Shown in pieces: positions 43,594-51,490 of a stretch of DNA of 64,000 nucleotides; the stretch's first letter is position 1; the number at the start of each line of letters is the position of its first letter. The stretch comes from an uncultured Bacteroidales bacterium (GTDB lineage Bacteria; Bacteroidota; Bacteroidia; Bacteroidales; UBA932): contig ONKO01000001.1 in the NCBI GenBank assembly GCA_900318445.1, forward strand, positions 339,116 to 403,115, given 5' to 3'. The translations under genes were made by a program, and so were the position numbers. The notes below the pieces were generated by a model. The model was not told the origin of the DNA and did no database searches. It saw only the letters and a program-made list of their open reading frames with translations.

Positions 43594-44842
43594 AGGATTT
43601 GACAATGCCCCGCAGGTAGACGCCTTCACCGTGGGCAAAGACCGTGAACTGGACCTCCTGCTGGCACCCTACGACATTGAGGGTACCCTGGCGCATATCA
43701 CCATGTTAAAGGAGGTGGGCCTTCTTGCGGCCGATGACTTCGCGTTGCTCCGCCCCGCCCTGGAAGCCCTCCACCAGGAGGCGCTGGAAGGCAAGTTCGT
43801 GATTACTGGCGAGGATGTGCACTCCGAGGTGGAAGCCCGCTTGGGCCCCTTGGGAAAGAAAGTTCACACAGGCCGCTCCCGCAACGACCAGGTGGCCCTG
43901 GACATCAAGCTCTTCACCCGGGCGCGGCTGAAGGGCACCCTGGAGAAGGTGTCGCAGCTGTTCAATCTTCTCCTTGCCCGGGCCGATGAACTCAAGGATG
44001 TCCTCATGCCCGGTTACACGCATCTTCAGGTGGCCATGCCTTCTTCTTTCGGCCTCTGGTTCAGCGCTTACGCCGAAGCCCTTTGCGACGACGTGGTTTT
44101 TCTCAAGGCCGCCTGGGAAGTGAACGACCGCAACCCGCTGGGGTCCGCTGCCGGCTATGGGTCATCGGCCCCGCTGGACCGCAGGCGCACCACCGAGCTC
44201 CTGGGTTTTGGCTCCCTGGCCGTCAACTCCATCTATGCCCAGATGGGCCGGGGCCGATGCGAGCGTCAGGTGGCCTTTGCCTATGCCAGCCTGGCCGAGA
44301 CCCTCGGAAAACTGGCTACTGACTGCTGCCTGTTCACCAGCCAGAACTTTGGCTTCGTGAAACTGCCCGATGCCTACACCACTGGTTCCAGCATCATGCC
44401 CCAGAAGAAAAACCCCGATGTGTTTGAACTGGTTCGGGCCCACTGCAACCGCCTGCAGGGTATTCCCAATGATATACGCCTTGTAACCGGCAACCTGCCC
44501 TCGGGCTATGCGCGTGACATGCAGGTGCTCAAGGAACTGTACCTGCCTCTCTTCGATGAGCTGGACAGTTGCCTGGACATGCTCCTCTTTGCCCTGCCCG
44601 GCATGGAAGTGAACCGCAGCCTCATGGAGAATCCGCTCTACCAGCAGGCTTTCTGCGTAGAGGAAGTGAACCGGCTGGTGCAGGAAGGCGTTCCGTTCCG
44701 TGATGCGTATCGTGAAGTGGGAAAGAAGGTACAAAAAGGAGCCTTCCATTTTGAAGGAAAGCTCCATCATACGCATGTTGGCTCTATTAACAATCTCTGT
44801 CTGGACGAGATCCGGGCCCGGTTCGAGGCTTGTTTTTCTTAA
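43577..44842 (+). CDS. argH: Argininosuccinate lyase
   Basis: A 421-residue member of the fumarase/aspartase superfamily with HTGRSRNDQVA, the GYTHLQVAMP motif and the signature GSSIMPQKKNP. It releases arginine and fumarate. It is the last gene of the operon, and a strong hairpin follows. Confidence 0.97.
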   Translation: MKIWDKGFDNAPQVDAFTVGKDRELDLLLAPYDIEGTLAHITMLKEVGLLAADDFALLRPALEALHQEALEGKFVITGEDVHSEVEARLGPLGKKVHTGRSRNDQVALDIKLFTRARLKGTLEKVSQLFNLLLARADELKDVLMPGYTHLQVAMPSSFGLWFSAYAEALCDDVVFLKAAWEVNDRNPLGSAAGYGSSAPLDRRRTTELLGFGSLAVNSIYAQMGRGRCERQVAFAYASLAETLGKLATDCCLFTSQNFGFVKLPDAYTTGSSIMPQKKNPDVFELVRAHCNRLQGIPNDIRLVTGNLPSGYARDMQVLKELYLPLFDELDSCLDMLLFALPGMEVNRSLMENPLYQQAFCVEEVNRLVQEGVPFRDAYREVGKKVQKGAFHFEGKLHHTHVGSINNLCLDEIRARFEACFS

Positions 44843-44860
44843 TTGCTTCTTAGTGAGTGA

Positions 44861-44908
44861 TTTACGACTTTTCCTCCGGGAATAATTGGCTGGAGGAAAA
44901 GTCGTAAA
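44861..44908 (+). terminator. Hairpin terminator after argH
   Basis: A perfect 17-bp stem pairs 44861-44877 with 44892-44908 around a 14-base loop; the arms begin TTTACGACTTTTCCTCC. It lies 19 bases past the argH stop and separates the arginine operon from the peptide maturation operon. Confidence 0.75.
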
Positions 44909-44954
44909 ATGCGTTATATCAGCGTTTTGATAAAAACGGTTGATGGGGATTATT

Positions 44955-44986
44955 TTTGGAGAGTTTAATTATTTTTCATACATTTG
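44955..44986 (+). promoter_or_regulatory. Promoter of the CXXX-repeat peptide operon
   Basis: The -33 TTTG (44955-44958) and -7 TACATTTG (44979-44986) are 20 bases apart, which is consensus. The leader to the ATG at 45013 is about 20 bases. Confidence 0.75.
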
Positions 44987-45012
44987 AAAGTCGTTGATAA
45001 ATAGGCCGTAAA

Positions 45013-45684
45013 ATGAAAGATAATGACGCGCTATCGGGCAGAAGAGAGTTCCTGAAACGACTCGGCGCTGCCACTTTGCCAGCCATCGCCATCATTACTG
45101 GATTGGTGCCCTTGTCCTCCTGCGTCAAGGAAGAACTTGTTGTTTTGGACTGCAACGAATCGTGTACGCAAGGCTGCACGGGATCGTGCGTCGGAAGTTG
45201 TACGAGCGATTGTAGTTCCGACTGCGTGAGTGCGTGCTCTTCCGTTTGCACCGGCAGCTGCGGCAATTCCTGCGAAGGCGGATGTAAAGGTTCCTGCCGG
45301 ACCGGATGCACCAGCTGCACCGGCGGCTGTGAGAACTCCTGCACGGGTGGCTGTGGCGGATCTTGCACGGGCGGCTGCAGCGGATCGTGTACCAATGGCT
45401 GTAAAGAGGAGTGCACGAATGCGTCCAGCCGTGGATGCTATGAGTGCTCAAAGGCTTGCTATGCCAGTTGCTCCAGCAGTTGTTCCACTGCGTGCTACCA
45501 AGAATGTGCCGGCAGTTGCAGCGACTATTGCATCAACTCTTGCAGAGGTTATTGCACCAACAGTTTAAAGAGTCAGAGTAGCGGATGCTCCGACAAAGGC
45601 TCCTGCTCCTTTTTTTGCGTGAACAGCTGTTATCACCTATGTTATGGAGCTTGTAAAAACGCCTGTGTAGCATCTAGCAATTAA
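45013..45684 (+). CDS. CXXX-repeat peptide precursor with Tat-type lipoprotein signal
   Basis: A 223-residue protein. The N-terminus carries a twin-arginine motif (GRREFLKRLG) followed by a hydrophobic segment and a lipobox ending at Cys37 (LSSC). From Cys47 to the end there are 41 cysteines; 35 of the 40 intervals are exactly four residues (CTGS, CVGS, CTSD...), broken by two three-residue steps and three longer gaps. Spacer residues are mostly Gly, Ser and Thr in the first half and include many aromatic residues in the second half. The downstream radical SAM genes mark it as a ribosomally made, modified peptide of the CXXX-repeat class. The Tat signal would allow export after folding or cross-linking in the cytoplasm. 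Confidence 0.85.
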   Translation: MKDNDALSGRREFLKRLGAATLPAIAIITGLVPLSSCVKEELVVLDCNESCTQGCTGSCVGSCTSDCSSDCVSACSSVCTGSCGNSCEGGCKGSCRTGCTSCTGGCENSCTGGCGGSCTGGCSGSCTNGCKEECTNASSRGCYECSKACYASCSSSCSTACYQECAGSCSDYCINSCRGYCTNSLKSQSSGCSDKGSCSFFCVNSCYHLCYGACKNACVASSN

Positions 45685-45689
45685 TCGCC

Positions 45690-46898
45690 ATGCAGGTCAA
45701 GGAAGGAAATACATCTTGGCGCGGCGGAATGGCCAAGAACATCACCTTCATCGTCACCAAGGATTGCCAGTTGGCATGCAAGTACTGCTACCTGGTAGGT
45801 AAGAACATGAAGGAGAGGATGGGTTTTGAGACCGCCAAGGCTGCCGTAGACTATATTCTTGGAGACAGGGAGCAGTTTTCCGAGGACTCGGTCGTCTTTG
45901 ACTTTATAGGTGGCGAACCCTTTCTGGAAATTGACCTGATTGACCGCCTGTGCGACTACATCAAGCAGCAGTTGTTTCTTCTGGATCATCCCTGGTTCAA
46001 TTCATACCGGTTCAGCTTCTCTACCAACGGCATCAATTACCACGAGAAAAAAGTTCAGCAGTATATTGAGAAGAACAAGAGTCACCTCTCAATAGGAATC
46101 ACCATCGACGGCACCCGCGCTAAACATGATCTCAACAGAGTATACAAAAACAGCAACCGGGGCTCCTACGACGATGTCGTCCGCAACCTTCCTCTCTGGC
46201 TTTCACAGTTCCCCGACATGGGAACCAAGGTTACGATCAGCAGCCCGGATATCCCTTTTGTGAAGGAAAGTATTCTGCACCTGTATAGCCTTGGCATCAA
46301 GGAAGTCAATGTCAACTGCGTATTTGAGGACGTGTGGAAAGACGGGGACGATGCCCTTTTTGAAGAGCAACTGGTGGCGTTGGCCGATGAAATCATAGAC
46401 CGTGGGCTCTACCGGGACCACTTTTGCTCGTTCTTCACCGGAGATATTGGCCGCCCCTTGGATCCCGAGCGTGAGAATCAGAACTGGTGCGGGGCCGGAA
46501 TGATGCTTTCGGTGGACGCTGCGGGTAACTTCTATCCGTGTACCCGTTTTGCCGCCTTCTCGTTAAGAAACAAGAAGCCTATTATTATAGGTAATGTCCG
46601 TGAAGGAATTGACCGGGACAAACTGCGCCCGTTCCTCACCCTGGACAGACTTACCCAGAGCCCGGAGGAATGCAAGAACTGCGAGGTGGCAGCCGGTTGT
46701 TCCTGGTGCCAGGGAGAGAACTATGATGCGGCTTCAAAGCCTACCATTTTCCGCCGTTCTACGGCCATATGCCGCATGCACAAGGCACGTGTCCGGGCCA
46801 ATAATTACTACTGGTCCCGTCTCGAAAGGCTTGAGACCAAGGAAGAAATTGAGAAACTTAGAAACAGGGAGGGAGCATGCTGCGATATCTTATTATAA
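45690..46898 (+). CDS. Radical SAM/SPASM peptide maturase, CXXX-repeat target family (TIGR04115-like)
   Basis: A 402-residue enzyme with the radical SAM CxxxCxxC motif (Cys26, Cys30, Cys33 in CQLACKYC), the GGEPFLE motif, and a C-terminal SPASM domain with many cysteines (NWCGAGM, NFYPCTRF, CKNCEVAAGCSWCQGEN). The C-terminus ends GACCDILL. It probably installs cross-links on the cysteines of the precursor encoded 5 bases upstream; the chemistry of this class is not established to my knowledge. Its 3' end overlaps the next gene by 22 bases. Confidence 0.88.
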   Translation: MQVKEGNTSWRGGMAKNITFIVTKDCQLACKYCYLVGKNMKERMGFETAKAAVDYILGDREQFSEDSVVFDFIGGEPFLEIDLIDRLCDYIKQQLFLLDHPWFNSYRFSFSTNGINYHEKKVQQYIEKNKSHLSIGITIDGTRAKHDLNRVYKNSNRGSYDDVVRNLPLWLSQFPDMGTKVTISSPDIPFVKESILHLYSLGIKEVNVNCVFEDVWKDGDDALFEEQLVALADEIIDRGLYRDHFCSFFTGDIGRPLDPERENQNWCGAGMMLSVDAAGNFYPCTRFAAFSLRNKKPIIIGNVREGIDRDKLRPFLTLDRLTQSPEECKNCEVAAGCSWCQGENYDAASKPTIFRRSTAICRMHKARVRANNYYWSRLERLETKEEIEKLRNREGACCDILL

Positions 46899-47749
46899 TG
46901 CTGGATGCATCGGCCCCATCTTTCTGCTACTATCCGGACCCTCCGTCCGGAGGGGACAAGATGCCACTGGAGGTTCTCCGGAAAGCCGTTTTTTTTGCAC
47001 AGACGCACGCCATGGGCGTGAATGTCCTGTGCGCTGAACCGCCCGCGAAAGAGATGCTGGAGGAGCTCGATAAGATCAATCATATTATCATCGGCCCTCC
47101 GTCCATTACATGTGATTTCGTTTGGAATATTCCCATACTGAATGCTGGGGAAGACTTGTCGGCTTTTGCCGGGAATCCCGATAAGAACGTGATTCTTCGA
47201 ACCAGCATGGCTTCTCTTCCGAATCTGCCGGAGGCCGTCCGCACCTTGAAGGGAAAGTTCCGGCGGCTGAACGTCATCATTACCGATGAGTGGAAGATGA
47301 CGACCGCTCAAGTTGCTCATTTTCAGGAGATTCTGAATGATGTGGGCCGATACGCCGATGGCGTTCAAATCAGCCTTGTCACAGACCGTGGCATGCTCGA
47401 TAAGCCCTCTCACTGCGATGCTGGCGTAAGGCATCTGACCGTTGCTCCCGATGGCCGGTTCTACGTGTGCCCGGGTTTCTTCCTGGAGGATCCGGATGAT
47501 TCCTGCGGCAGCGTGGACGAAGGTGTATACATCCCGCTAGAAGAGCTCTATCGGCTGGACCATGCACCTATATGCAGGGTTTGCGATGCCTGGCAGTGCA
47601 AGCGCTGCGTTTGGATGAACAGGAAGAGAACACTGGAAGTGAACACGCCTTCCCGCGGTCAGTGCATTACTTCGCACGTGGTGCGAAACCATGCGCTGAA
47701 AGACAATCCTACCCCATATCTTGACCCTTTTGAACTGATAGGAAGATGA
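46877..47749 (+). CDS. CXXX-repeat peptide maturase partner (TIGR04119-like), SPASM-like without radical SAM motif
   Basis: A 290-residue protein. No CxxxCxxC motif is present at the N-terminus. The C-terminal third has a SPASM-like cluster pattern: HCDAGVRHLTVAPDGRFYVCPG, then Cys233, Cys236, Cys241 and Cys244 (CRVCDAWQCKRC) and a final Cys in RGQC. The central part contains a beta/alpha pattern (LNVIITDEW, GVQISLVTD), which suggests a barrel that has lost the [4Fe-4S]-SAM site. It overlaps both neighbours (22 bases and ATGA), so the three genes are translationally coupled. Likely role: partner or scaffold of the active maturase. Confidence 0.75.
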   Translation: MLRYLIIMLDASAPSFCYYPDPPSGGDKMPLEVLRKAVFFAQTHAMGVNVLCAEPPAKEMLEELDKINHIIIGPPSITCDFVWNIPILNAGEDLSAFAGNPDKNVILRTSMASLPNLPEAVRTLKGKFRRLNVIITDEWKMTTAQVAHFQEILNDVGRYADGVQISLVTDRGMLDKPSHCDAGVRHLTVAPDGRFYVCPGFFLEDPDDSCGSVDEGVYIPLEELYRLDHAPICRVCDAWQCKRCVWMNRKRTLEVNTPSRGQCITSHVVRNHALKDNPTPYLDPFELIGR

Positions 47750-49389
47750 GACGCATTTTGATGAACATAGCTCTGGTAATCCTTACCGCTGCCTGCAGTA
47801 CTGAGTACAGGTATGAGTACTCTTTCTCGAAGCCTTTTGTCAGCAACGTGACGGTAGATGCCGTAACGGAAAAATCGGCCATTCTTTCCGGAACCGTCTA
47901 CCGGGATGGGGGACAGGTGGTTTCTGAAAGGGGCTTTTATCTATCCACGTCTGCGTTCGAGGAGAATCCGCCTTCATCGGCCCAAAAACTCGTCGCGCCG
48001 GGGAATTCCGGGGTGGGGAAGTTCGGCATGGAAATCGTTGGGCTTTCGCACGGAACCACGTACTATGTGTGCGCCTATGCGGTGAATGAGGAGGGGACCG
48101 TATTTTCTTCCACCGAATCCTTCTCCACAAAGAAAGTGGCGAAGGTTACACTGGGAGACACAGAGGTGGATTTCCTTAGTATTAATAAAATGCATCCTTC
48201 TATAGACCATGAGTACGAGTACAATTGGGCCTTACGTTTTCCCTTGCATTTCGAAGGCGTAGAGTCACTGGTCTCTGCAGGTGTTTGTGTAGATGGGAAA
48301 GATTTTCTTTATGACAAGGCGCTTCCTGCTTCCGACGACGAGAGTATTGTCGTGGATTGCTCCACGGAGAGGTCTCCATCGGGAGATGTCACGGTCAGTG
48401 TGTATGCATTTGCGGAAGATAAGGAGGGCAAGCGACTGGTGTCCGACCCCCGTCAGCTCTCTCTCTCTACTATGGGCGTCTCCCTTCGCCCGTACGCAGA
48501 AGCTGTCGAAACCGACTGGTATTCCGAGCCGGGCAAGGGCTATTATCTTCATTTCTTTGAGATAGGTGTCAAGGTGACAACTGGCGCCTCGAACATCACT
48601 GAATTGGGTGTTTTCCCTTCGTCTACCTATATGACAACGTATTTTAAGCCCGATTATTTCGTGGAGAACGTTTATTATAATACTACTGAAGTTGTACGTA
48701 GCAGTGAGCCGGAAGTAACGCTGAATACCAGCGGTATGGGCGTGCTAAAAAATGGAATGAATTTCTATGGTTGGGATCACTATACCGCCGAAAACATGGC
48801 TACATCAACTTATGGAGTGAGCGCCGGTTACGAAGTTTATTTTTCCGAGGAGTTTGCTGGCGGCTTGGGCTCATCGTTCAGCGCTGTGGCTAATACCCAG
48901 GGCTCATACACTTGGGTGTGGGATTCCAGCATGCAGTGCGCGAAAGCAAACGCCTATTCAAGTGGGAGTAACCGTGCGGCAAATACCTCTCTTGTGTCCA
49001 AACTCATTGATTTGAAAAACCGTACTGCGGCATTCCTCTCTTTCAGTGCCTATGCAAAGTACTTTACGAATGTGAACGAGGAAGTATCCCTTTCTGTCTA
49101 TTCGAGTAAGGACAACAAATGGTACCCGTATTCTATGGATCTCACGAACGATGTTTCTTGGGAAGTCAAAGTCATTGACTTAAGCCGGTTTCTCGGTGAC
49201 GAGATCAAGCTCTCTTTCAACTATACCAGCACAGAGGCATCCTGCGGCTCCATTCTCCTTGACAATGTTGAGATTTTCTCATCCGCGAAGGCTCCGTCTG
49301 CTTCGGCGCTCTTTTCCCGGCAGCGGGCTCTTCAGCAGAATAAATTGGATTCAGTAAACAAAGAACGATATGAAAACACTCGTAGGTAA
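47746..49389 (+). CDS. Large lipoprotein of the CXXX cassette with Fn3-like and choice-of-anchor-like domains
   Basis: A 547-residue lipoprotein (lipobox Cys17, TAAC). Residues about 33-130 form a Bacteroidetes Fn3-like domain (VTVDAVTEKSAILSGTVYRDGG). The middle is beta-rich and unrecognised. Residues about 365-515 resemble jelly-roll domains of the choice-of-anchor/DUF5017 kind (FSAVANTQGSYTWVWD, SILLDNVEIFS). It is coupled to the previous gene by ATGA and overlaps the next by 20 bases. It could display, bind or receive the mature peptide at the cell surface; that is inference from context. The base composition is visibly more AT-rich than that of flanking operons. Confidence 0.75.
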   Translation: MRRILMNIALVILTAACSTEYRYEYSFSKPFVSNVTVDAVTEKSAILSGTVYRDGGQVVSERGFYLSTSAFEENPPSSAQKLVAPGNSGVGKFGMEIVGLSHGTTYYVCAYAVNEEGTVFSSTESFSTKKVAKVTLGDTEVDFLSINKMHPSIDHEYEYNWALRFPLHFEGVESLVSAGVCVDGKDFLYDKALPASDDESIVVDCSTERSPSGDVTVSVYAFAEDKEGKRLVSDPRQLSLSTMGVSLRPYAEAVETDWYSEPGKGYYLHFFEIGVKVTTGASNITELGVFPSSTYMTTYFKPDYFVENVYYNTTEVVRSSEPEVTLNTSGMGVLKNGMNFYGWDHYTAENMATSTYGVSAGYEVYFSEEFAGGLGSSFSAVANTQGSYTWVWDSSMQCAKANAYSSGSNRAANTSLVSKLIDLKNRTAAFLSFSAYAKYFTNVNEEVSLSVYSSKDNKWYPYSMDLTNDVSWEVKVIDLSRFLGDEIKLSFNYTSTEASCGSILLDNVEIFSSAKAPSASALFSRQRALQQNKLDSVNKERYENTRR

Positions 49390-49642
49390 AGTCTCCGCTG
49401 AAGAGCGGGAAGTGATTCAGGCTCTCTTTGAAAGAAAAAACGGTTTAGCAGAGCTTGCTAAGATTGTGAGCGTTGAAAACGCTCCCTTGTACGAGAAACT
49501 TGTAAAGGATATGGGCGAAACCGCAACTCGCTTTCAGAAATGGTGGGACGAGATGTCGGCCAAATATGAGTGGCGTTCTGCCGCTAATGGGCATTGGGAA
49601 ATAGACTTTGATACGTGCGAGATTTATTTGAACGAGCCGTAA
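49370..49642 (+). CDS. CXXX-repeat peptide modification system small protein (TIGR04116-like)
   Basis: A 90-residue protein with a helical N-terminal two thirds (AEEREVIQALFERKNGLAEL) and the conserved-looking end FQKWWDEMSAKYEW...HWEIDFDTCEIYL. It resembles the small protein family that accompanies CXXX-repeat peptides and their radical SAM maturases. It may act as a chaperone or recognition element for the precursor. It overlaps the preceding lipoprotein gene by 20 bases and ends the operon. Confidence 0.75.
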   Translation: MKTLVGKVSAEEREVIQALFERKNGLAELAKIVSVENAPLYEKLVKDMGETATRFQKWWDEMSAKYEWRSAANGHWEIDFDTCEIYLNEP

Positions 49643-49667
49643 TTTTCGGCGCAAGTTCCGGGTGTCA

Positions 49668-49783
49668 GCGGTGCAGGTTCCAAAATGTTGTTGGAACCTG
49701 CATCGCGAATCGGCCTTCTGCGTTGCTCCGGTGGCGCAGGTTTCGGCCCTAAAATGGAACCTGCGCCATTTATGGCTGAACCT
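49668..49783 (+). repeat. Structured intergenic repeat element, copy B
   Basis: This 116-base element matches copy A (35848-35964, opposite strand) at 99 positions without gaps. Hairpin 1 is GCAGGTTCC/GGAACCTGC around an 11-base loop; hairpin 2 begins GGCGCAGGTT and closes with AACCTGCGCC. A base pair in hairpin 2 is C-G here and T-A in copy A, a compensatory change. It starts about 25 bases after the last gene of the CXXX cassette. Confidence 0.85.
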
Positions 49784-49830
49784 GCACCTTCGGGGTGCCA
49801 GTGGGCTTTTTCGCAACTCCCCAGCCAAGC

Positions 49831-49960
49831 CGATGTACGTACATCGGTAGTCGTGGCGCTTAATCCGTCAATAATCAGCATGTTAGCACAACTGACGGGT
49901 ATGAAACGCATACCCGTCAGTTGTGCTAATCCTTTAGTATTCACCTGTTTAAGCGCCACG
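49831..49960. repeat. Nested inverted repeats in the 49643-50269 non-coding region
   Basis: Three elements follow each other: a perfect 16-bp palindrome CGATGTACGTACATCG (49831-49846); an outer stem of 11 bp (49852-49862 with 49950-49960, CGTGGCGCTTA); and inside it a perfect 21-bp hairpin with a 5-base loop (49883-49903 with 49909-49929). The inner hairpin is a strong candidate terminator for the peptide operon. No gene is supported in this region. Confidence 0.75.
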
Positions 49961-50003
49961 CTGCATTAGGAAAGAGGCCTTGCCGGGGTGGGGCGTTTTA
50001 ATA

Positions 50004-50163
50004 GGGCTCGGGCACGAGTGGTTTTGTAAATGGTTGTATATCAACATATTAGGAGGTGTATCATGCCCGAAGTCGGCATATTAATATGGTTCGGGTATGA
50101 GCGGTTCTACAACTGACTGTATATCAATACGTTAGAAAATAAGCCATGCCCGAGGTTGGCATT
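50004..50163 (+). repeat. Tandem pair of diverged 77-bp repeats
   Basis: Copies at 50004-50080 and 50087-50163 align without gaps at 53 of 77 positions, and most differences are transitions. Both share TGTATATCAA and end in ATGCCCGA(A/G)GT(C/T)GGCAT. The first copy has AGGAGG seven bases before an ATG that opens a 17-codon frame (MPEVGILIWFGYERFYN); the second also reads MPEVGI. Coding is not established. Confidence 0.6.
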
Positions 50164-50269
50164 ATCAGACAAGGCATCAGCCGTTACCAACCACAAATGT
50201 CACAATCACCAACCATTTTGTCAATTATACTGAATTTTTGTGATGAGTTGATATTTAGTCGGTTTTACA

Positions 50270-51490
50270 TCACGCCACAAAGAGTGAGATGATGTTCAAA
50301 ATGACCTCGTAGGCTTTCTCCATGCTCTCCAGGGGTACGAATTCCATTTTACCGTGGAAGTTGAGGCCGCCGGCGAAGATGTTGGGGCAGGGAAGGCCCT
50401 TGAAGGAGAGGTTGGCACCGTCGGTTCCGCCGCGGATGGGCTGAATCTTGGGCTTGACGCCGGCCATTTCCATAGCCTTTACGGCCTTCTCGATAATGTG
50501 GTAGTGGGGCTCCACCTGCTCTCTCATGTTGTAGTACTGGTCCTTCACCGTGAGGGTGACGGTGCCGGCGCCGTATTTCCCGTTGATGAAAGCGGCGGCT
50601 TTCTCGATGAATTCCTTCTTCTTTTCAAACTTGGCGCGGTCGTGGTCCCGGATGATGTAGGCGAAGTCCGCTTCCTCCACCGTTCCCTTGAAGGAGATGA
50701 TGTGGAAGAAACCCTCGTAGCCCTCGGTGTACTCCGGGCGCTGGTCTACGGGAAGCAGGGCGTCGAACTCCTCGCCAATGTGAATGGCGTTTCTCATCTT
50801 GCCCTTGGCGCTGCCGGGGTGCACGTTGCTGCCCTGGATGTGGACCTTGGCACTGGCGGCGTTGAAGTTCTCGAACTCCAGCTCTCCAATTTCTCCGCCG
50901 TCCATGGTGTAGGCATACTGGGCGCCGAACCTCTTGACGTCGAATTTGACTACGCCGCGGCCGATTTCTTCGTCGGGGGTGAAGCCAATCTTCACGGGGC
51001 CGTGCTTGAACTCGGGGTGTTCTGCCATGTACTCAACCGCCTGCATGATTTCGGCCACGCCGGCCTTGTCATCGGCCCCAAGAAGGGTGGTGCCGTCGGT
51101 GGTGATGAGGGTCTGGCCCACAAAGTGCAGCATCTCGGGGAATTCCTCCGGTTTGAGCTGCAGGCCGGGGACACCCTTGAGGTCTATGGCGCCGCCGTCG
51201 TAGTTCTTGATAATCTGCGGCTTGACGTCAGCGCCGCTGGCGTCGGGGGCGGTGTCTACATGGGCGATGAAGCCTACGGCCGGGACATCGGCCTCGATAT
51301 TGGACGGGATGGAGGCCATCACGTAGCCGTATTCGTCCAGCGTTACTTCCACGCCAAGGGTCTGGAGCTCGTCTCTCAGCATTTTGAGGAGGTCCCACTC
51401 CTTGGCGGCAGAAGGCTGCGTTTCACTTTCTTCGTTACTTTGGGTGTCTACGCTCACATAGCGCAGAAAACGGTCTAAAATCTTTTCCAT
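50270..51490 (-). CDS. pepT: Peptidase T (tripeptide aminopeptidase)
   Basis: A 406-residue M20 metallopeptidase with AHVDTAPD, the [12 protein letters not shown] motif, [10 protein letters not shown] and the [13 protein letters not shown] end typical of PepT. It removes N-terminal residues from tripeptides. It is divergent from the OPT peptide transporter with back-to-back promoters, so uptake and breakdown of peptides are probably coupled. Confidence 0.95.

Follow-up and report, generated by a model that had tools for sequence, protein, structure and literature searches.

Two thioether-forming enzymes of the radical S-adenosylmethionine (SAM)/SPASM type, the SCIFF maturase CteB and PapB, which acts on PapA to give the ranthipeptide freyrasin, are the closest described relatives of the maturase considered here. 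PapB joins a cysteine to the residue four positions on, with flexible spacing, and the acceptor in PapA is the Asp or Glu of a CX3D motif (PMC9413430). On the export side, the sequence C-X-K-(D/E)2-X is the optimal surface-export signal of Bacteroidota lipoproteins (lipoprotein export signal, LES; PMC5080379). Here we describe a five-gene locus that shares features with each of these systems and belongs to the CXXX-repeat modification system of NCBIfam. It lies on the forward strand of a 64-kb stretch of contig ONKO01000001.1 from an uncultured Bacteroidales bacterium (the window, whose positions are used throughout). We propose that a three-protein maturase cross-links a cysteine repeat in the cytoplasm and that the product is then carried to the cell surface by the twin-arginine translocation (Tat) pathway; taken as a whole this is the best explanation of the locus, and probably the right one.

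The earlier note on this DNA had named three protein families, and all three were recovered above the curated NCBIfam cut-offs: the radical SAM/SPASM maturase (45690..46898, with CX3CX2C at C26-C33) matches TIGR04115 with 615.9 bits (cut-off 350), its partner (46877..47749) matches TIGR04119 with 165.6 bits (150) and a protein of 90 residues (49370..49642) matches TIGR04116 with 96.9 bits (50). Together with a gene order like that of relatives, these scores are what the locus shares with the NCBIfam system. The precursor is where it differs, with 39.2 bits against a cut-off of 50 for TIGR04117 and 13.3 against 20 for TIGR04114; it is therefore no formal member of either family, and a Pfam search at E up to 1 gave no match to it. 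When the precursors of nine relatives were scanned, TIGR04117 was passed by those of L003 and L080 and TIGR04114 by those of L003 and L009. Outside its own family the TIGR04115 protein best matches the PapB model NF047865 (189 bits, cut-off 340) and, with the SCIFF maturase model TIGR03974 (115 bits, cut-off 425), again stays below the cut-off. The only solved structure related to it in sequence at E up to 0.001 is that of CteB (PDB 5wgg/5why). This match begins at residue 11 of the query and residue 92 of CteB; the N-terminal part of CteB, a recognition element (RRE) for ribosomally synthesized and post-translationally modified peptides (RiPPs), is without counterpart, and the TIGR04115 protein has no room for an N-terminal RRE. 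The family is rare: TIGR04115 was detected in 7/295 genomes of the order and 6/395 of the phylum, the window's own genome included.

The precursor gene (45013..45684) encodes 223 residues with 42 cysteines, and its N-terminus reads MKDNDALSGRREFLKRLG...LSSC-VKEEL before the array. The codons of the twin arginines R10-R11, within GRREFLK, occupy 45040..45045; the lipobox LSSC, with C37 as the predicted lipidated cysteine, 45112..45123; the acidic VKEEL 45124..45138; and the CXXX array 45151..45666. The claim that 41 cysteines follow C37 and that 35 of their 40 intervals are exactly four residues was confirmed, the number of such intervals averaging 4.25 and reaching at most 13 in 10,000 shuffles of the mature part. 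GRREFLK fits the [S/T]RRxFLK-like Tat signal, with G replacing S/T before the arginines, and tatC is present in the genome. LSSC followed by VKEEL has the form C-X-K-(D/E)2-X and thus resembles the LES lipoproteins (rule from PMC5080379); the precursor differs from these by its twin-arginine signal and by a body on which a radical SAM enzyme has probably acted. The proposed CXXX-repeat system with Tat signal, lipobox and surface lipoprotein is supported. Tat export of the precursor is very likely, a lipid anchor is also to be expected with good confidence, and surface exposure is probable. The cysteines look to be under constraint: against each of the relatives L009, L010 and L062, 42/42 aligned cysteines are kept, with identities at the other positions of 126/181, 90/181 and 63/178, and against the more distant L011 37/39 are kept (48/172 elsewhere); 16/42 cysteine codons differ silently from those of L009.

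We then placed the precursor among its relatives. A profile from seven aligned enzymes was run against contigs and confirmed 380 relatives; the best 80 were surveyed together with L002-L008, giving 87 loci, and because of this choice close relatives are favoured in the survey. (L003 and L018 are apparently the same contig, and the window's own locus is L005.) Precursor candidates were chosen without regard to the signal motif, as open reading frames (ORFs) on the same strand in which at least three pairs of Cys are spaced by four and Cys makes up more than 7%; after four of 132 candidates were dropped by hand as ferredoxins or other non-precursor ORFs, 128 in 84 loci remained. The motif RRx[F/L][F/L/I] is present in 122/128, with a consensus of about ELQSRREFFKKAAKGALPILGAI, and the idea of an exceptional Tat architecture is not supported. 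Of the other six, those of L004 and L033 are open to the locus or contig end, that of L024 has a degenerate motif, and those of L053, L057 and L074 have no visible leader. The leaderless ORFs, all upstream of a maturase (L057:5658-5972, L074:79-504, L053:5801-5974), may reflect frameshifts, cut genes or a leaderless class. At least one twin-arginine precursor occurs in 81/87 loci, the exceptions being L004, L008, L033, L036, L057 and L064; in four of these (L004, L033, L036 and L064) the sequence covers less than 1.5 kb on the upstream side of the enzyme. Outside the order, the precursors of genomes G412 and G630 combine RR with a lipobox-like VDSC or IDSC.

Under an approximate rule, 45/122 twin-arginine precursors have a lipobox; this rule misses those of L062 (111), L028 (2531) and L039 (2961) and takes in doubtful rows such as L015 (8113), and a stricter rule gives 31 instead of 45. 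At least two acidic residues stand at +2 to +6 in 37/45 lipobox precursors, against 4/77 at the first Cys of the rest, three of these four being lipoboxes overlooked by the rule. The form C-X-K-(D/E)2 occurs in ten lipobox precursors, including that of the window. In 69/77 non-lipobox precursors an AxA of the signal peptidase I type stands ahead of the first Cys. The median length counted from RR is 184 residues for the lipobox precursors vs 99 for the rest. A Tat signal is close to a family-wide rule, with the lipobox marking one of two classes and the window precursor of ordinary size. The description of that precursor as unusually large was rejected: from RR on, 25/121 other twin-arginine precursors and 18/44 other lipobox precursors are as long or longer. 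Classes can mix in one cluster, as in L015, which has five different precursors with and without lipobox; L080 has six. Among seven long relatives, five have weak domain matches, all below cut-off, and two have none. Some lipobox precursors carry extra domain-like parts, such as a FISUMP-like one at L055:4029-5252 (TIGR02145, 37.3 bits, cut-off 41.65) and a weak OB-fold match at L040:1030-2157; parts of this kind would be more in keeping with surface proteins than with metabolites that are released.

The genomic link to Tat was assessed next. The earlier note asked for tatC in the genome; both tatC (174.3 bits) and tatA (64 bits) are present. In this genome, 88% complete, they occur once each, as neighbours on another contig, and since these are the only copies seen the window's cluster must rely on them. 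Among the relatives, clusters carry their own tatA in 42/87 cases and tatC in 38/87, always after TIGR04116 (38/38). In an unrooted tatC tree of 37 copies in clusters (the partial L085 left out) and 23 elsewhere (22 of them from the set of 40 cluster-bearing genomes counted below and one from the window's genome), one branch with support 92/82 splits the two groups. Counted over two sets of cluster-bearing genomes, which share G311 and in which G055 and G304 look like one, tatC occurs in 45/47 and 36/40, and at least two copies, counted by eye, in 20/47 and 12/40. In the sample of the order a second copy is found in 3/7 cluster genomes vs 11/288 others (p 0.0027), and this is a stronger sign than mere presence.

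Several results weigh against the proposal. The general Tat model TIGR01409 misses the window precursor (11.4 vs 16.7 bits), and the window's cluster itself lacks tat genes; the tatC of its genome sits on a long and unsure branch of the tree. tatC is common anyway, being present in 243/295 genomes of the order, and in six cluster genomes the searches show none; one of these, G370, has a tatC piece at a contig end (L085). TIGR04116 also occurs in L125, a lineage without Tat signals, and hence is no Tat-only factor. On the side of the chemistry, TIGR04119 misses the general SPASM model TIGR04085 (17 vs 27 bits), and no X position of the repeat is invariant, unlike the Asp in the CX3D motif of PapB.

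Four genomes (G037, G413, G502 and G717) combine a TIGR04115 cluster with a Cys-repeat precursor that has no twin-arginine motif. These precursors are small, with 70 residues and 13 Cys in G037 and 66-94 residues and 5 Cys in the others, and in all four an ATP-binding cassette (ABC) exporter adjoins the maturases. A homology scan with two queries, both among the four positives, found no homologue of the exporter in the sequence stretches of 81 Tat loci, which cover at least 4.5 kb on both sides of the enzyme in 43 loci and at least 2.5 kb in 61, so that an exporter farther away would escape. Anchored proteins and small exported peptides, contrasted earlier, do both exist inside the family, the latter in the ABC-exporter lineages. 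One such layout, at L125:6076-9088, is that of classical RiPP export: beside the same maturase family stand a 70-residue Cys-repeat precursor, an ABC exporter and an apparently subtilisin-like gene. The question arises whether the window's product is itself a classical RiPP, with a protease later cutting out the array, a small bioactive peptide being released and the lipid anchor no more than a stage. The gene set of L125 and the AxA of the non-lipobox precursors speak for such processing. We nevertheless consider it improbable for the window: no protease or ABC exporter family is matched by any of its five genes, no exporter homologue was found in the stretches of the Tat loci, and arrays of 41 or more Cys occur in 21 precursors. 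The leaders of the two export types share one feature. K-T-L-P-G is kept in the three 5-Cys leaders, and L-P stands at the same place in 110/122 twin-arginine leaders; this hints, as a guess from the leaders, that L-P may mark the substrate for the maturases and RR the export route. The G037 precursor is without any L-P, which speaks against L-P as a general substrate mark.

What the maturase does to the array was judged from its relatives and from the repeat. Across the family 2366/2750 Cys intervals are of four residues, Cys is the only fixed residue, and the X residues are mostly small and polar. A fixed acceptor at X was sought and not found, the entropies at +1, +2 and +3 being 3.60, 3.05 and 2.99 bits over 2366 repeats. 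Where the residue at +4 is not Cys (290 cases), Ser accounts for 45% and Ala for 22%. By analogy with its relatives TIGR04115 likely modifies the cysteines, and we lean towards a thioether as the modification. The alternative is another reaction on the array, namely epimerisation, the formation of C-C or C-O links, or a conversion of Cys of the kind carried out by sulfatase maturases. The thiols or disulfides left over would then have their role outside the cell. This seems unlikely, since the best matches of TIGR04115 outside its own family are both thioether formers and since Cys, four residues apart, is all that the repeat keeps. An array with 41 Cys and small, polar X residues could also serve as a metal or cluster store, metallothionein-like, loaded before export, with the enzyme pair loading or protecting it and no cross-linking; Tat often exports cofactor-carrying proteins. 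We regard this as very improbable, because it leaves a radical SAM enzyme related to thioether formers without a role and because the small family members beside the ABC exporter have only 5 or 13 Cys.

For the thioether, the comparison with PapB extends to the spacing of four residues from the donor Cys, and stops at the acceptor: the window precursor lacks the CX3D/E motif, as +4 is Cys in 35/40, and up to 40 links would be possible in place of the six in PapA. Because PapB's acceptor is at +4, where Cys mostly stands in this family, a Cys-to-Cys linkage is possible. Attack on the Cys beta-carbon is an established ability of SPASM enzymes, as in sulfatase maturases. The i to i+4 spacing of PapB and Cys as the only fixed residue at +4 thus suggest a sulfur-carbon ladder, in which the live enzyme, its dead twin and TIGR04116 would join each Cys sulfur to the next Cys beta-carbon in up to about 35 steps, and the rigid rod would be exported by Tat, often by a Tat of its own, and lipid-anchored on the surface. 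In this detailed form the idea is speculative and rather improbable; if true, RiPP chemistry builds cell-surface rods.

The second maturation protein had been described as a SPASM-like partner. It has a SPASM-type Cys pattern, and from fold prediction and alignment it is predicted to have a complete radical-SAM/SPASM fold that lacks the motif for the SAM cluster. CX3CX2C is present in the first 120 residues of 0/65 aligned TIGR04119 members, and CX12GX4C with CX2CX4CX2C, slightly shorter than the SPASM consensus, in 65/65. The best fold match of the predicted structure is CteB. CteB is thus a sequence relative of one window protein and the nearest fold of another, differing from the first by its part before residue 92 and from the second by the SAM-cluster motif. 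In the model for PapB (PMC10470005), each link leaves an electron in auxiliary cluster 1, and an outside carrier returns it to the SAM cluster, probably via cluster 2. An enzyme that may act some 35-40 times per chain and has at its side a dead twin equipped with cysteines for two auxiliary clusters fits such a need; electron relay by TIGR04119 is accordingly offered as a tentative possibility. That the protein is a substrate-binding scaffold only, replacing the missing RRE, with no electron transfer, is a serious candidate, short of being probable. In its favour, the TIGR04115/CteB match leaves the RRE part without counterpart; against it, the SPASM-type cysteines are kept in all 65 members, and a pure scaffold would have no need of them. 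Gene fusions tie TIGR04119 both to TIGR04115 and to TIGR04116.

From three family memberships, the signal, the lipobox, the LES, the genomic Tat link, the pseudo-radical-SAM fold and the fusions, all read from sequence or predicted, we infer complex formation, thioether chemistry, electron relay, Tat export and surface exposure in the following course. The N-terminus of the precursor would double as leader for the maturases and as Tat signal. TIGR04115 would work on the CXXX array in the cytoplasm, in a complex with TIGR04119 and TIGR04116 suggested by the fusions, most likely forming thioethers repeatedly from Cys sulfurs, as homology to PapB and CteB suggests. TIGR04119, with its auxiliary-cluster cysteines kept and its SAM-cluster motif lost, would probably grip the array and, each time a link is made, might relay the electron back to the SAM cluster. 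The finished rod may be too rigid for threading through Sec and would leave by Tat, using TatA-TatC encoded in the cluster in many relatives and elsewhere in the window's genome. Lipidation at C37 and a flip to the surface by the K-E-E signal would follow, so that the product of the operon would be a cross-linked, lipid-anchored surface protein made by RiPP-type chemistry.

If this is true, the output of radical SAM peptide maturation can extend beyond secreted small molecules to large anchored surface proteins, and recruitment of Tat for cross-linked peptides, even with duplication, is possible. PapB depends in vitro on intermolecular electron transfer, for which a radical-SAM pseudoenzyme carrying auxiliary clusters could then be the natural partner. 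The system is real, and its family is named but undescribed in print, as far as literature searches reach. Within that reach we found no published account of the CXXX-repeat product, the Tat/ABC split, TatAC encoded in the clusters or the TIGR04119 pseudoenzyme; matching papers contained only the string CXXXCXXXC, with no TIGR number and no mention of 'CXXX repeat peptide', no paper among the matches listed mentioned 'twin-arginine', and the main text of PMC10352776 does not mention CXXX. Likewise, the names of the NCBIfam models do not mention the Tat/ABC split, the clusters' own TatAC, the lipobox classes or the pseudo-radical-SAM nature of TIGR04119. For specialists, the features of greatest interest are likely to be the Tat genes within clusters, the Tat/ABC split and the pseudoenzyme partner.

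All five ORFs were found in the window at the coordinates given here. The earlier note had them all coupled by overlaps, and from the maturase onward this holds, with overlaps of 22, 4 and 20 nt; the precursor is separated from the maturase by a gap of 5 nt. TIGR04116 was considered as a candidate RRE; its structure model (pLDDT 96), in the order strand, two long helices, two strands, has no Foldseek match at E up to 0.001. A role for this protein as a Tat-only chaperone was dropped, since the ABC-exporter lineage L125 has it; no TIGR04116 match was found in L128-L130, the three other ABC-exporter loci. The remaining gene (47746..49389) encodes a lipoprotein with weak FN3-like and choice-of-anchor J/MAM-like parts, all matches being below cut-off. 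In L009, L010 and L062 a close homologue (635, 255 and 138 bits, respectively) lies between TIGR04119 and TIGR04116. L011, L035 and L085 have weaker homologues, at 54-65 bits, located upstream of the precursor or the maturase; we therefore treat it as a clade-specific extra.

The consensus promoter ascribed to the operon did not hold up as a sigma-70 site, since such sites are at chance level (5 found vs 4.6 expected in 44800-50300), and it was rejected. A pattern search gave a putative site at 44955..44986 of the Bacteroidales promoter type, TTTG-N20-TAnnTTTG; TTTG-N(19-21)-TAnnTTTG has five matches on both strands of the 64 kb, a second of which starts at 44926. Named Bacteroides genomes with the cluster are B. 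salyersiae (L079), B. congonensis (L027) and B. timonensis (L049). Two inverted repeats lie 3' of the operon, at 49668-49706 (16-nt arms, 94%) and 49883-49929 (21-nt arms, 100%), and are perhaps small repeat elements or terminators.

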